From Desmonostoc muscorum LEGE 12446 (GTDB lineage: Bacteria; Cyanobacteriota; Cyanobacteriia; Cyanobacteriales; Nostocaceae), in the NCBI RefSeq assembly GCF_015207005.2, contig NZ_JADEXS020000001.1, forward strand, positions 4,464,001 through 4,528,000: DNA of 64,000 nt, in the 5' to 3' direction. The notes below the pieces were generated by a model, which worked only from the letters and a program-made list of their open reading frames with translations, was not told where the DNA came from and ran no database searches. The translations under genes were made by a program, and so were the position numbers. Of the stretch, positions 23,600 to 28,651 are shown one piece after another. The number at the start of each line of letters is the position of its first letter. The stretch's first letter is position 1.

Positions 23600-23686
23600 T
23601 AGCTGTCATGAAATTTAGGTGAGCGATCGCTTTTACAATACCATCATTCCACCTCAGAACAAGGAACTACTAGCTCGGAACTAAAA

Positions 23687-23850
23687 CGTTCTCGTTTGAA
23701 ACAGGAACATTCTCGTTTGAAACAAGAACATTCTCACTTGGAACAGGAACGTTCTCGTTTGGAACAGGAACATTCTCACTTGGAACAGGAACGTTCTCAT
23801 TCAGAACATGAAAAGCCGAGTTCGGAACACGAAAGGCCGAGTTTAAGCGA
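23687..23850. repeat. 21-bp tandem array (about six clear units)
   Basis: Units of 21 bp built on cgttctcgtttg + gaacaggaa alternate with cattctcacttg variants, degrading toward 23850. Because 21 is divisible by three, each strand shows a seven-residue repeat (for example SRLEQEH on the plus strand, NENVPVP on the minus strand). No start, ribosome site or domain supports a gene. Confidence 0.85.
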
Positions 23851-23895: not shown

Positions 23896-26067
23896 TTATT
23901 CTGGATTTTGGGAAAGGCGATCGCGAATATATGCTAAATCTTCACGACAAGTAACAGTACGGAGATGATTAACTCCTAGACATCGCTCATAAATATCCAA
24001 AGCTTGCTTTAACAGGTCTTCAGCTTTGCTGTATTTGCCTTGGGAGTTATAAAATGCCGCCAGATTGTTAAGAATGAGTGCAACATTAGGATGTTCCTCA
24101 CCCAGTCGGCATCGCTGTATTTCTAAAGCTTGTTTATACCAGGATTCGGCTTCGCTGTATTTATTCTGGGATTCGTAGAGTCCGGCCAAGTTATTGATGG
24201 TAGTAGCAACAGTATGATGTTCATCACCCAGCAGGCATTGTTGTAGTGCCAAAGCTTTCTCATACAGAGGTTCAGCGTCACTGTATTTTTTTTGGGATTT
24301 GTAGCATAACGCCAAGTTATTGAGACTTTGAGCAACATCAAGATTTTCTTCTCCCAGCAGACGTCGCCTTATTGCTAAAGCTTGCTGGTATAAAGGTTCG
24401 GCTTTGTTATGTCGATCTTTAAAAGAGTAAAATAATGCTAGGTTGTTAAGAGTTTGAGCAACATCAAGATTTTCTTCTCCCAGCAGACGTCGCCTTATTG
24501 CTAAAGCTTGGAGATATAAAGATTCCACTTCATTGGATCGACCTTGAAAAGAGTAAAATAATGCTAGGTTGTTAAGACTTTGGGCAACATCAAGATTTTC
24601 TTCTCCCAGCAGACGTCGCCTTATTGCTAAAGCTTGGAGATATAAAGATTCCACTTCATTGCATCGACCTTGAGAAAAGTAGAGTCCCCCCAAGTTGTGG
24701 AGGCTGGTGGCAACATGAAGATGCTCTTCGCCCAGGCGCTTTTTAGTAACTTCTAGACACTGCTCACACCAAGGAACAGCCTGTCCATATAATCCTTGAC
24801 CACTATAAAACCAAGCGTTACCGATGAAAGGCAGAGTTAAATCATCATCGCTGAGGTATTGAATGAGATTGTTCGCTACTTCAGCTATATGAGGTATAGC
24901 GGGGGTGGCATCGGTAATTTGCTTAAGCGTAGGGGTGTAAGGGATCTCTTTTGCAACTGCTACCATTACCCGACAAAGCGATCGCTTAAATTCTTCTACC
25001 TGTTCTAAACCTGTACACTGATATTGGAAAAATTCCCGCAACAGTGGATGCAGTTGATAAACTCCCTCACCTTTGCGCTGGAGTAAATGCAAATTCAGCA
25101 AGCTATCGTCTCTAATGTCTTCTAAATCTTGGGCATCTTCATCTGGTAAACATTGTTCCACCAACTTCCAAGGTATAGGTGCGGCTGCAAATAAACTCAA
25201 TAAACAACCCAATTGTTTATCGTCGTCTTCTAATTCTTGCCAACTCAACTCAAAGGCGGCTAACACACCTCGTTGTGCTGTCATGTCGGCTTCCGACTTA
25301 GATTTAGAAAGAGAACGCTCATCTAATCGCTTGTTCTCCAACCGCCGCAACATCTCAGCTACAGATAAATCCTGTTTCCGTGCCAGATAGCGCCCCACTA
25401 ATTCCACACCCAAAGGTAAATATCCTAGCCACTCACACAAATGATTTGCTACAGCTAATTCTTTTTCAATTCGCCCTGGTGTTTCTTTGAGTAAAGACTT
25501 GAATAACTCCAGCGCCTCCTCTGGTTGCAGCACATCCAAAGATAACTGTGCGATGCGTCCCAACTTCTGGCGCGTAGTCATCAGCACTTTAAACCGAGAA
25601 GGTAGGGACTGTAAGTAAGGCTTAACTTCCTCGTAGTCGCTGACATCATCCAACACTAGCAACACATCACCACCACGCCAACGCCGCCAGCAATATTGCA
25701 CTTGGGCGAGTAATTTTTGGTTAAAATCTTCTGTTAAATCCTCTGGCGGGTTTAAGTCAAGCTGCGTTCTGGCAAACTGCACAACTTGAATGCCTATATC
25801 CCCAGTTTTTGGTAGCAACCAGCAAAGCCCACCGTTGTATGTTTCGCGGCGTTGGATGGCATATTGCAAAGCGAGTTCTGTTTTACCTACTCCACCCATG
25901 CCGGCGATCGCAGCAATGGCTACTTGTTTATAATCCTGCAAAAGTTGGTGGAGATTTTGCAATTCTTCTTCACGCCCGACAAATTCCACCACCCCACTCA
26001 GGGGCAAATTTTGCGGTATTTCAGTAAAAGGATTTGACTTTACCCGTTCCCCTTCAGGCGGCTGTAG
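23896..26067 (-). CDS. NB-ARC/TPR STAND ATPase (NLR-like), lacking its own start
   Basis: The frame has a P-loop GMGGVGKT (Walker A, residues 36-43 if numbered from the TTG at 26007), a Walker B LLVLDDV (116-122), an NB-ARC body with MTTRQKL and LGYLPLGVELVG, and then about seven TPRs of the 42-residue kinesin-light-chain type. STAND proteins of this layout act as signal-sensing switches; bacterial relatives include phage-defence sensors. TPR units 2-4 are nearly identical in DNA with a 126-bp period (24341, 24467, 24593), a sign of recent expansion or gene conversion. The frame is open back to a TGA (26068-26070) in the same register, with no good start codon between; the N-terminal effector part lies beyond it. 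Confidence 0.85.
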   Translation of the reverse strand, partial: LQPPEGERVKSNPFTEIPQNLPLSGVVEFVGREEELQNLHQLLQDYKQVAIAAIAGMGGVGKTELALQYAIQRRETYNGGLCWLLPKTGDIGIQVVQFARTQLDLNPPEDLTEDFNQKLLAQVQYCWRRWRGGDVLLVLDDVSDYEEVKPYLQSLPSRFKVLMTTRQKLGRIAQLSLDVLQPEEALELFKSLLKETPGRIEKELAVANHLCEWLGYLPLGVELVGRYLARKQDLSVAEMLRRLENKRLDERSLSKSKSEADMTAQRGVLAAFELSWQELEDDDKQLGCLLSLFAAAPIPWKLVEQCLPDEDAQDLEDIRDDSLLNLHLLQRKGEGVYQLHPLLREFFQYQCTGLEQVEEFKRSLCRVMVAVAKEIPYTPTLKQITDATPAIPHIAEVANNLIQYLSDDDLTLPFIGNAWFYSGQGLYGQAVPWCEQCLEVTKKRLGEEHLHVATSLHNLGGLYFSQGRCNEVESLYLQALAIRRRLLGEENLDVAQSLNNLALFYSFQGRSNEVESLYLQALAIRRRLLGEENLDVAQTLNNLALFYSFKDRHNKAEPLYQQALAIRRRLLGEENLDVAQSLNNLALCYKSQKKYSDAEPLYEKALALQQCLLGDEHHTVATTINNLAGLYESQNKYSEAESWYKQALEIQRCRLGEEHPNVALILNNLAAFYNSQGKYSKAEDLLKQALDIYERCLGVNHLRTVTCREDLAYIRDRLSQNPE

Positions 26068-26349
26068 TCAAAAGTTAAAATTTTGGGTTCGGTTGTCATT
26101 AGAAACATTCCCGACATTCCCGCCATAATTTTTATCAACTGTGTTCGTAAAATTCTGGATAATAGCGGGTTGAGATTTCACAGCATCCGCCACCGTCTCG
26201 ACAGCTTGAGCAATTTCCAGGTCTTTGTTTGCCGCTTCCTCTACTTGTTCGATTAGATGCGCTTGACCATAATCTAGAGGTTGTGTTTGAGCTAGTTCAA
26301 TGGCACTTGCTGTATTGGGTTGTTTGCGCTTCAGGAGTAAGAATAACTT
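26068..26349 (-). pseudogene. N-terminal region of the NB-ARC gene, exon 2 side of the group II intron
   Basis: The frame KLFLLLKRKQPNTASAIELA continues through helical, acidic sequence (QVEEAANKDLEIAQAVETVA) to a Asn-rich linker ending NDNRTQNFNF and a TGA. That TGA is in the same register as the NB-ARC frame, which continues at once with LQPPEGERVKSNPF. Cyanobacterial NB-ARC proteins often carry such a short helical effector-associated region and an Asn-rich linker before the NTPase, so I read this as one former gene cut by a nonsense codon. Two separate genes remain possible. Confidence 0.7.
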
Positions 26350-28543
26350 GGTTGAGTCGATGGGGGATATTATTCCCCGCACCTCTCAGTTAGATCCGTG
26401 CGTACCCGTTTCCGTGTACACGGCTCCCGATGTTCTCAGCTTCTCAGCTTTCGCTTTTGCTCATGTGCTTGTAATCGTGGCAACTCTCGTGAATTGCTTC
26501 CAGATTATTTTTCTTCCAGTTGGCGTGATTTTCGTCGATGTGATGCAGATGAATCCGTTCCTCATCGATGAACTTTAAGCCGCAAGAGGCACATCTATGG
26601 TTTTGCTTCTTAAGAGCAAAAGAAGTTTCGCCGTCATAGAGCTTACTTTTGCGTTCGCTCCAGTAGGCTGTATCTCCGTCATAGGGGGATTTTGTTCCTT
26701 TAACCATGACGTGGCTACTTTCGGAGTAGGAAACTGCTGGGAATGCTTTGTCTAGTAATTTCTTGCTAGCGTAGCGATTTTTCTTGGCTTCCTTGTTGAA
26801 TACCGTATAAGCTCTTTTTTTGATGTGGTATAACGAGTTTCTAGACCCGTCCATCTTGCAGAACTTATGGTAATTTCTCCAACCTCTTACTACCGGGGCT
26901 AATTTCTCAGCCTTTGTGGTAGCACCATAATTCGAGTTGTTGACGATGTGTTTTACTTTCTTACGGAATGCTTTGAAGTTGTCCACTGAGGGAATGCTTC
27001 TAAACTTTCCGTTTTTCTGGACTTTAAAGTGCCAGCCGAGGAAATCAAACCCATCTGTCGCGGCGGTAACTTTGGTTTTCTTTTGGCTTACATTCATTCC
27101 GCGTTTGCGGAGGAACTCGCTGATTTTCTCAAGTATCTCTATCGCATTATCTTCGGGTCGGAGTATAATAACCATGTCATCCGCGTATCGGATTGATGGC
27201 TCGTTGATTTGCCCGTTGGCTCTGTATCTGTGGATACTTTCAACCCCGTTGAGTGCGATGTTTGCTAATAGTGGGCTGACTACTCCCCCTTGAGGTGTAC
27301 CCTGTTCGGGGAATTCTGGGTTTACTCCTGCCTTGAGGCATCGGTATATTCCGAGTTTTAAGCCTTTGGGGGCGATGAGTTCGTCCATTATTGCTGAGTG
27401 GTTAATCCTATCGAAGCATTTTTCGATATCGAGTTCTATAACTCGTTTCTCTGTTCCATTGCAGGAAGAGCGTAGGTTATTGTAGATGTACCGTTGTGCA
27501 TCGTGAGCAGAGCGCCCTGTTCTGAACCCGTAGCTCCTGGCGTGGAAAGTGGCTTCGTGTGCTGGTTCTAGTGCATATTTTGCAAGGCATTGCCAAGCTC
27601 TATCCGCTATGGTTGGTATTTTAAGCATTCTGGTAGTCCCGTCCTTTTTGGGGATGGGGATTTCCCTTAGTCCTTGATGCTTCCAATTTCCACTATTCAT
27701 TTTCAGTAATTCTTCAAGGTTGAAGCGTTCCTCAAATGACAGGGATTTCTTACCATCAATACCCGCCGTTTTTTTACCAGCGTTTAGCTGAGATACAAGT
27801 CTAATTGCAAGAAATCGAGCCGAGGTGGATTTAAAAATAAGCTTTTGGAGAAACCTAGCTTTCCGTTTGTCTCCAACTTGAACCGCTTTAAATACGCGCT
27901 TTTGAAGGCGGAAAAGATTTCGGCGGAATTTCTTCCACGGTAAGGCTTTCCAAGATTCACTAGTATGTCTACTGTGTCTAATCATTTTCTCTTCTAGAGT
28001 TTGTATTTTCTGAACACCTCAGACCAATTACGGTCTGTCCTACCCGAATTGTGAGAGTTCCGCTTCTCGTCTAGCCTACTTGGGGAACGAAAGCCCCAGG
28101 ACTCACAAATCGTTTTTATTCGTTCCCTCGGAGAGATTGATTGTTCCGTTAGATGTAGCCAATTTGACCGTTGGATTCCCTAGACTCTTGCCGTTATTGG
28201 CGATATTACGGCGGGAATTGGCTCCAACGAAGTCAGGGATTTTAGTGTTGCGCCCTGCTCTACGATGGGTCACTTTTTGAGGCTCTGTTTCATCATAGGA
28301 ACTCCCTATTAGCGCCAGTGTCAACCCGCAACGGTCGTCTGATTGCGCCCTGTTCCCAGCTTCACTCTACAAGAACCGAGCTTGTTCGGTGTGGGCAGAT
28401 AAGGAGTCAATTCTGAGTCTGAATGGCAAGGCTTACACTTGCATCTGACCGAGAGTTCAGCCTTTAGTGACAGTAATCTGCTGTCGGGCTGGCTTAGTTA
28501 TGTGCGGACTGACTACCGTGATTCACTAAGCAACGAATCGCAC
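26350..28543 (-). mobile_element. group II intron with reverse transcriptase (about 2194 bp)
   Basis: On the minus strand the element starts with GTGCG (28543-28539), the consensus 5' end of group II introns. It encodes a maturase-reverse transcriptase and ends with a recognisable domain V (GAGCCGTGTACACGG / GAAA loop / CGGGTACGCACGG, about 26429-26395) and a domain VI hairpin (GGGGAATAATATCCCC) just before the 3' splice site near 26350. Splicing between 28544 and 26349 would join GAA to AAG in frame (…DEGE-KLFLLL…). The exact 3' end could be one base away, which would break the frame. Confidence 0.9.
26444..27985 (-). CDS. ltrA: group II intron reverse transcriptase/maturase with HNH nuclease
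   Basis: A 513-aa intron-encoded protein. The RT domain (about 60-320) has the palm motif YADD at 267-270 and the QGTPQGGVVSPLLANI block just before; domain X/maturase follows (FLGWHFKV ... VRGWRNYHKF), then a C-terminal HNH endonuclease with CASC (465-468), HHID near 480 and a final N-x-x-H region. It helps the RNA fold and splice and drives target-primed insertion into DNA. All catalytic motifs look intact, so the intron may be mobile and splicing-competent. It lies wholly inside the intron RNA, between domain IV borders. Confidence 0.95.
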   Translation of the reverse strand: MIRHSRHTSESWKALPWKKFRRNLFRLQKRVFKAVQVGDKRKARFLQKLIFKSTSARFLAIRLVSQLNAGKKTAGIDGKKSLSFEERFNLEELLKMNSGNWKHQGLREIPIPKKDGTTRMLKIPTIADRAWQCLAKYALEPAHEATFHARSYGFRTGRSAHDAQRYIYNNLRSSCNGTEKRVIELDIEKCFDRINHSAIMDELIAPKGLKLGIYRCLKAGVNPEFPEQGTPQGGVVSPLLANIALNGVESIHRYRANGQINEPSIRYADDMVIILRPEDNAIEILEKISEFLRKRGMNVSQKKTKVTAATDGFDFLGWHFKVQKNGKFRSIPSVDNFKAFRKKVKHIVNNSNYGATTKAEKLAPVVRGWRNYHKFCKMDGSRNSLYHIKKRAYTVFNKEAKKNRYASKKLLDKAFPAVSYSESSHVMVKGTKSPYDGDTAYWSERKSKLYDGETSFALKKQNHRCASCGLKFIDEERIHLHHIDENHANWKKNNLEAIHESCHDYKHMSKSES

Positions 28544-28651
28544 TTCGCCTTCGTCCCAAGCCTTTTCGCCGATGATTTCACCAGTTTTTTCAAAAGCCTT
28601 GGTGATGACTAAGGTTGCGATCGCAGCTGCTGTCAGTGATACTGGCTCCAT
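28544..28651 (-). pseudogene. first exon of the split NB-ARC gene
   Basis: From ATG 28651 the frame gives MEPVSLTAAAIATLVITKAF and then EKTGEIIGEKAWDEGE, where the group II intron begins. The hydrophobic start followed by A-F-E-K-x-G-E is typical of the N-terminus of cyanobacterial NB-ARC and related STAND proteins. 36 codons end exactly on a codon boundary, so exact splicing restores a 129-aa first section before the internal TGA. Confidence 0.75.

Follow-up and report, generated by a model that had tools for sequence, protein, structure and literature searches.

The window described here is a 64 kb stretch of the 9.6 Mb genome (G000) of the cyanobacterium Desmonostoc muscorum LEGE 12446, and the gene of interest lies wholly on its minus strand. 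The gene has two coding parts in one reading frame, separated by an in-frame UGA. The upstream part encodes a small protein, the putative effector, and the downstream part a NOD-like receptor (NLR) with an NB-ARC domain and tetratricopeptide repeats (TPRs). Behind the stop lies an RNA element which, together with the stop, recurs as a cassette in many other cyanobacterial loci. To judge from a comparison of these loci, the stop is very probably a programmed leaky one, by which the single gene would give many free effectors and few effector-receptor fusions.

The locus

The features of the gene are as follows.

28544..28651, minus strand: effector open reading frame (ORF), exon 1 (MEPVSLTAAAIATLVITKAFEKTGEIIGEKAWDEGE, 36 codons); its homologues are stand-alone small proteins.
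26350..28543, minus strand: group II intron of 2194 nt inside the effector ORF (Rfam RF00029, copies in the same genome, empty site in genome G117).
26444..27985, minus strand: intron-encoded reverse transcriptase/maturase, 513 aa in an unbroken frame (Pfam RVT_1, RVT_N and GIIM; HNH slightly below its cut-off).
26071..26349, minus strand: effector ORF, exon 2, 93 codons; exons 1 and 2 together encode 129 aa.
26071..26136, minus strand: C-terminal tail of the effector, a candidate amyloid-like motif (low predicted local distance difference test score, pLDDT; copies of the tail in cassette-less relatives).
26068..26070, minus strand: UGA, the proposed readthrough site (stop counts across cassette loci).
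26060..26067, minus strand: 8-nt spacer, beginning CUA, between the UGA and the pseudoknot.
26029..26059, minus strand: H-type pseudoknot (pairing and covariation; stem 1 repeated on further loci), made up of stem 1, 26059-26055 with 26046-26042, stem 2, 26051-26048 with 26032-26029, and an A-rich loop, 26041-26033.
23896..26067, minus strand: NLR part in the same frame, with NB-ARC at about 25971-25282 and TPRs; start codon not conserved across the family (Pfam, start-codon survey).

The ORF beginning MEPVSLTAAAIATLV starts with an ATG at 28651-28649 and runs for 36 codons, the last of which ends at 28544. After the 2194-nt insert at 28543-26350 the frame resumes at 26349, continues for 93 codons to the TGA at 26070-26068, and is followed by 723 NB-ARC/TPR codons in the same frame. 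This second frame, which opens with LQPPEGERVKSNPF and passes through NB-ARC and then the TPRs, keeps the same register down to a stop at 23898-23896; its earliest in-frame start codon 3' of the TGA is a TTG at 26007. Pfam recognises NB-ARC (E=4e-17) and TPRs in it, with 62.6 bits for PF00931 against a cut-off of 23.5 and 273.7 bits for TPR_12. Having an NB-ARC domain with a Walker A motif and a TPR sensor, the protein belongs to the signal transduction ATPases with numerous domains (STAND NTPases). ORF reading and Pfam thus bear out the layout given in the original prediction, with an intron splitting the first exon, an in-frame TGA at 26070-26068 and NB-ARC/TPR in register behind it.

A conserved stop in an open frame

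An intron-less paralogue in the same genome has TGA CTA at the same place and in the same register. The 129-aa domain is present in 164 of the 217 genomes of the host family, and its open frames, among the matches listed, are mostly about 125-170 codons long. Of the first 32 related loci, 29 show homology to the NLR from exactly one codon past the stop onwards, without a change of frame. The exceptions comprise a fragment of the split window copy, a locus at a contig end and one with two genes.

To avoid bias towards any stop, a stop-free DNA pattern lying wholly 3' of it was run on 208 genomes. It matched 79 of them, and a reversed control pattern matched none. The list from this pattern holds 121 places, of which three were left out (G200:C91, G208:C18 and G209:C1:1412905). 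Hits less than 90 nt from an end were skipped, and 130 hits were reduced to 116 distinct junctions by identity over 120 nt. All 116 junctions, which come from the host family, have TGA directly 5' of the pattern, so an in-frame TGA at this place is beyond chance. The exact form of a similar pattern found 47 stretches in a named genome collection. All are cyanobacterial, from Nostoc, Scytonema, Brasilonema, Fischerella, Komarekiella, Kastovskya, Aphanothece, Xenococcus PCC 7305 and others, and all 47, a set that overlaps with the 116, have TGA.

Over 174 cassette loci the stop is TGA in 169, TAG in five and TAA in none; 58 of these are far loci found with an RNA model that includes TGA and is biased accordingly, while the sets from stop-free patterns are unbiased. 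Five of 63 far loci (four duplicates and the stop-less L237) were excluded from this count. CTA or CTG directly follows the stop in 154 of the 174. A putatively leaky stop is thus retained with its context, and UAA is avoided. In bacteria, UGA followed by C is described as a site of inefficient termination, and tRNA-Trp as misreading UGA in E. coli and B. subtilis, in the part of PMC5289835 available here.

The reading frame is kept as well. Frame 0 is open over the 60 codons past the stop in 113 of the 115 junctions used for this count (out of the 116), compared with none and one for frames +1 and +2, and it is open in all of 63 further loci. Many elements of deviant length differ by 3 or 6 nt. 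Differences of another size occur as well, and in the loci of this sort that were examined (L242, L255 and L333) frame 0 is still open. The arrangement is thus that of one in-frame stop flanked on both sides by open, homologous coding sequence.

A start codon for the second part is harder to find. In the 155 cassette loci where a Walker A motif is present, the earliest codon that could serve as a start lies anywhere from index 0 to 102. No position is more frequent than the equivalent of the TTG at 26007, which is not a general start because it occurs in 31 of 115 loci only. No family-wide ancestral start that could have been lost is apparent from these sequences.

Proteins in which the two parts are joined can also be looked for directly. 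Long proteins with the effector domain, sought among 5.8 billion proteins with 799 candidates scored, yielded two fusions, both with W at the position of the stop. One is a protein of Nostoc sp. CALU 1950, known from its protein sequence alone; it is the safer case, because the other fusion may be translated with another code. The original prediction had named two outcomes that would tell against a once-fused gene. Relatives invariably split into two genes, the second with a start conserved near 26007, were not encountered, and relatives with the parts fused do exist, though just two.

The RNA element

The 45-nt elements behind the stop align without gaps in 95 distinct rows, and the pseudoknot was identified by eye from this alignment. 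Columns 12-16 pair with 25-29 in stem 1 and 20-23 with 39-42 in stem 2, and the structure sets in 8 nt past the stop. Pairing holds in 97.8% of cells; shuffling the columns lowers this to 93.1 +- 0.3%, and sliding the register by 1-3 columns to 16-52%. Cells changed on both sides number 49, against 12.5 +- 2.8 when shuffled. The covariation score of 0.310 (0.211 +- 0.007 in shuffles) is reached by none of 500 shuffles and lies above all slid registers. The 3' arm of stem 2 was outside the search pattern.

Searched with a covariance model of stem 1, 53 of 243 genomes of an order sample and 34 of 386 of a phylum sample proved to contain the element; both sets include members of the host family, and three of the genomes come from other orders of the class. 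In 42 distinct far rows stem 1 is 98.1% paired with a covariation score of 0.479, against 0.263 +- 0.021, in an alignment that was fitted to the model and so favours structure. The rows come from 43 loci, four of them already known.

Synonymous sites within the element seem to be frozen. Serine is TCG in 82 of 82 cases (6% in the background of the same genes), arginine CGG in 87 of 87 (16%), glutamine CAG in 63 of 65 (28%) and leucine CTA in 68 of 94 (11%); the search pattern itself favours consensus bases, which affects these counts. The same columns are conserved in 55 TGA loci of a set chosen by protein. This set used 68 of 72 small-domain loci, leaving out L013 (an intron piece), L065 (an early stop), and L014 and L015, which were replaced by the longer L055 and L057.

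A pseudoknot or hairpin about 8 nt past the stop is thus indicated by covariation, with one group of variants deviating. Variants L034, L035, L038, L039, L040, L042 and L059 have TGA CTA, but TCGAT at the 3' arm of stem 1. Judged by eye, the variant cassettes could form a bulged hairpin instead of the pseudoknot.

Interchangeable effectors and sensors

The protein upstream of the cassette is the small helical domain in 167 of the 174 loci, an alpha/beta hydrolase of PGAP1/DUF676 type in six and a PNP_UDP_1 phosphorylase in one. These three kinds are unrelated to one another. PNP_UDP effector domains are discussed in work on fungal NLRs, in the part of PMC9815663 at hand. The 17 downstream frames scanned with Pfam include NB-ARC with TPR or APAF1_C, NACHT with or without HEAT, a protein kinase, a PsbP-like protein and some frames without a confident domain. 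Effectors and sensors vary, while the cassette is constant.

The small protein itself has 249 relatives; the 120 listed are 102-163 aa long and, where named, mostly hypothetical proteins. The predicted structure of the intron-less protein from the same species has six helices, and pLDDT is below 50 for residues 108-129.

Tail copies in place of the cassette

Some relatives of the effector lie next to a sensor without a cassette between them. For comparing the two layouts, 107 distinct loci were chosen by effector homology (68 and 40 more, with one duplicate removed). The cassette class was assigned by the pattern or by model R1 (E up to 0.01) and the variant class by hand, TGA being partly presupposed: 58 loci have the element, eight are variants (all 66 with TGA) and 41 are without. 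The stops of the 41 are TAA in 30, TGA in seven and TAG in four. The 40 added loci are further places of effector homology, pattern-derived and already fetched places having been passed over, so the contrast between the layouts is meaningful and their proportions are not representative.

In each locus the last 30 residues of the effector were aligned to the start of the downstream protein and compared with 1000 shuffles at a threshold of 5/1000; five of the 107 loci were untestable. The downstream protein starts with a copy of the effector tail in 28 of the 37 testable loci that lack the element, as against 0 of 65 cassette or variant loci. An example is L088, with the tail NENWQGISIKGGINTIQYNNFNF in the effector and NENWQGINAKGGINVIKDNTFNF in the NLR. 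Among the nine cassette-less loci with no copy at this threshold are two near misses, L308 (8/1000) and L037 (14/1000). In L237 (1279-1314) the element persists without a stop, and the NLR there starts from an ATG of its own and carries a separate copy of the effector tail; this locus is possibly a transition between the two layouts.

A motif shared by the effector C-terminus and the NLR N-terminus, which defines the two-gene BELL/BASS type, is absent from the cassette and variant loci. For this reason the window locus is likened to that type and not classed in it.

The group II intron

GUGYG is the 5' consensus of group II introns. The insert in the window begins accordingly, has domains V and VI, and encodes a reverse transcriptase/maturase; its match to Intron_gpII (RF00029) at 26428-26351 scores 50.9 bits against a gathering score of 40. 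Four copies in the same genome, the window's included, are identical over 2194 nt, and two more are shorter by 8 nt with 100% identity. More diverged copies are also present. All six start GTGCG and end CTCAACC, and their 3' flanks differ, each with A first. The orthologue in the same-species genome G117 (taken as Nostoc sp. FACHB-973) is an empty site, GGCGAA/AAGTT, the slash marking the point of insertion. The six copies and this empty site set the boundaries of the insert.

The insertion is recent, because near-identical copies are found in the same genome and the site is empty in a relative of the same species. Exact excision restores the 129-aa effector ORF in frame, in keeping with the original prediction that splicing could preserve the first section, and the intron presumably does splice. 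The usual 3' end of a group II intron is AY. The window intron differs, ending ...CAACC according to the empty site, and all six copies in the genome concur.

Proposed mechanism

In the proposed mechanism, translation would yield a small effector, all-helical and with a signalling tail at its C-terminus. The majority of ribosomes would terminate at the UGA and release free effector. A minority would decode the UGA, probably as tryptophan, aided by the CUA context and the pseudoknot 8 nt downstream, and the product would be a fusion of effector, tail, NB-ARC and TPRs. When triggered by a ligand, the NLR part would oligomerise and the tails of the fusions would cluster. The clustered tails on the rare fusion would then template the abundant free effectors through their identical tail, and an amplified death or membrane response would follow.

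In most cassette-less relatives, the shared tail is placed on a separate NLR by duplication of the motif. Programmed readthrough as a replacement for this duplication in amyloid-like NLR signalling would best explain the two layouts. Readthrough would also add the effector itself to the receptor, and a fixed ratio of effector to fusion. In the host strain, the recent intron in the effector part would have to splice for the gene to function.

This mechanism is backed here by the conserved stop, the conserved frame, the covariation of the RNA, the modularity of the cassette and its exclusion of motif copies. Readthrough itself, how often it happens and which residue it inserts are inferences, as are the amyloid character of the tail, the killing and every step beyond translation. 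The broader form of the proposal is likely: a conserved UGA/UAG readthrough cassette of ordinary bacterial genes, stimulated by a pseudoknot and spread across cyanobacteria, would join interchangeable death effectors to equally interchangeable NLR-type sensors and set their dose at many effectors for few seeds, and infection could raise the seed.

Alternative explanations

The original prediction described a gene broken three ways, by an intron, an in-frame stop and the loss of its start, with silencing perhaps under selection. That the gene is decayed in this manner is very improbable. The intron does exist and is missing from the same-species relative, and copies of the family do decay, as in the extra NB-ARC stop of L003/L011 and the shortened NLR frame of the FACHB-973 orthologue. 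Yet the stop is common to the paralogue, the orthologue and many species, as TGA and rarely TAG, in the same register, with nearly the same sequence 3' of it and a downstream frame that is mostly open; in the window the 723-codon NLR frame is unbroken. Of the three alleged breaks the intron alone is new. The stop does not behave as a lesion, and no ancestral start that could have been lost is apparent. Selection for silencing need not be invoked and is hard to square with a junction under such constraint. What remains is the proviso that NB-ARC would go untranslated unless the stop were read through, which turns out to name the reading favoured by the evidence. The best rival is that the locus is an operon of two ordinary genes, with the NLR translated by termination-reinitiation or from an internal TTG or GTG and the RNA element aiding reinitiation or serving regulation; it is improbable, but less so than decay. 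One annotated record that was examined does start the second gene at a downstream codon, and possible starts before Walker A are common, as noted below. Reinitiation is indifferent to frame, however, and yet frame 0 is kept, many length variants differ by 3 or 6 nt, and the commonest start position is not general. An NLR started in this way would, moreover, be without the tail, of which most cassette-less NLRs have a copy.

Another possibility is that module swapping has spread the cassette as a recombination hot spot or as shared junction DNA, with the stop as an inert hitch-hiker. Swapping at or near the junction does occur, since the same junction joins unrelated effectors and sensors, but compensatory changes in two crossing helices are unexpected of inert DNA, and so is mutual exclusion with motif copies; this explanation has only a very slight chance of being right. 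The predominance of UGA might also suggest that it is decoded as a dedicated amino acid, by selenocysteine insertion or a UGA suppressor tRNA. The chance of this is close to negligible. UAG stands in place of UGA in five of the 174 loci, and the conserved length of the effectors suggests that termination matters. The host genome gave no match to SelB above the family cut-off; no genome-wide survey for a UCA-anticodon tRNA was made.

Several results weigh against programmed readthrough. In the RNA, pairs changed on both sides number four, which 51 of 500 shuffles match, and the further pair types of the far set are matched by 55 of 500. Stem 2 is weaker in the far loci (35-46 of 48 per pair in a fixed register), and the variant group, eight of the 66 cassette or variant loci, is without the same pseudoknot in that register. 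In the protein-coding parts, 146 of the 155 loci have a TTG, GTG or ATG ahead of Walker A, the downstream frame is shorter than 100 codons in five of 116 loci (one at a contig end), and the fused relatives are only two among the 799 candidates scored. Structure comparison of the effector fold gave no confident match. The p-values for the tail-copy contrast (Fisher, p=1.3e-17, or 1.9e-16 without the variants) overstate independence, because the loci are related. Finally, L080, counted as cassette-less, is degraded, with a remnant of the element, without a stop, a few codons after a TAA.

Comparison with known systems

Retroviruses offer familiar cases of a stop read through with the help of a 3' pseudoknot. 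The gag-pol junction of murine leukaemia virus (MLV), as set out in part of PMC4178896, resembles the window locus in its stop, 8-nt spacer, compact two-stem H-type pseudoknot, long 3' loop and single frame, and readthrough there gives a minority fusion. The two differ in that the viral case involves a retroviral mRNA, eukaryotic ribosomes and UAG, whereas the cyanobacterial cassette belongs to bacterial chromosomal and plasmid genes with mostly UGA-CUA; sequence and proteins are unrelated.

BELL/NLR two-gene systems with a shared amyloid motif are known in filamentous bacteria according to the available portion of PMC7889193. The window locus shares with BELL/BASS a small helical effector, a short C-terminal tail and a neighbouring NLR, as far as the accessible sections of PMC7889193 and PMC9815663 describe them. 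By the same sections, the defining layout, in which the tail is repeated at the NLR N-terminus, is that of most testable cassette-less relatives. At cassette loci, in contrast, the NLR has no motif copy of its own and readthrough would supply the effector's tail. Readthrough is not mentioned in the portions of these two accounts that were available. The STAND conflict systems of multicellular bacteria are alike in combining modular small, often alpha-helical domains with NB-ARC or NACHT NTPases (excerpts of PMC7159879 and PMC8195603), and "readthrough" and "stop codon" have no occurrences in these two texts.

An example of a conserved leaky UGA in a bacterial cellular gene, with C at +4, is prfB, which encodes release factor 2 (PMC5289835, in part). 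Unlike what is proposed for the window locus, it relies on a frameshift with autoregulation and has no in-frame readthrough joining two domains. The prfB frameshift site is not known to have a 3' pseudoknot. No report of pseudoknot readthrough in bacterial cellular genes or NLRs was found among the open-access titles and beginnings of abstracts listed, which is weak evidence.

If the proposal is correct, readthrough would be a recurrent device of cyanobacterial immunity. The stoichiometry of subunits in NLR amyloid signalosomes is a gap stated by the field itself (PMC7889193, in the part available), and it would here be set genetically, by a leaky stop. Readthrough is tied to the state of the translation machinery; therefore an infection that disturbs termination could raise the seed, and the leaky stop could be part of the alarm. 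Annotation can also hide such proteins. Plasmid pHT582-1, the only annotated record looked at, lists the effector as a hypothetical protein that ends at the stop; the following coding sequence begins 102 codons on, in the same frame.

Further observations

This plasmid locus (L271/L345, CP019637.1) lies on a plasmid typed as non-mobilizable, and an adjoining gene is annotated as ParB.

Single copies of the gene decay while the family persists. The intron-less paralogue L003/L011 (G000:C1:7433145-7435421) has an extra stop in its NB-ARC part that is absent from its FACHB-973 counterpart L055, and in L056, the orthologue from FACHB-973, the NLR frame is just 412 codons long. A third, isolated cassette in the host genome (L236, G000:C1:7987559-7987603) follows a frame of 63 codons with no recognisable effector and is likely a relic.

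Inside the TPR-coding part, at 24080-24681 of the window, are 126-bp tandem repeats, one array of which is 90% alike; they point to a recent repeat expansion in the sensor. Directly 3' of the NLR gene, at 23677-23843, are 21-bp tandem units of the AACATTCTCGTTTGGAACAGG type, and comparable repeat-coded ORFs lie near the NLR paralogues L002 (958-1230) and L003 (1054-1281).

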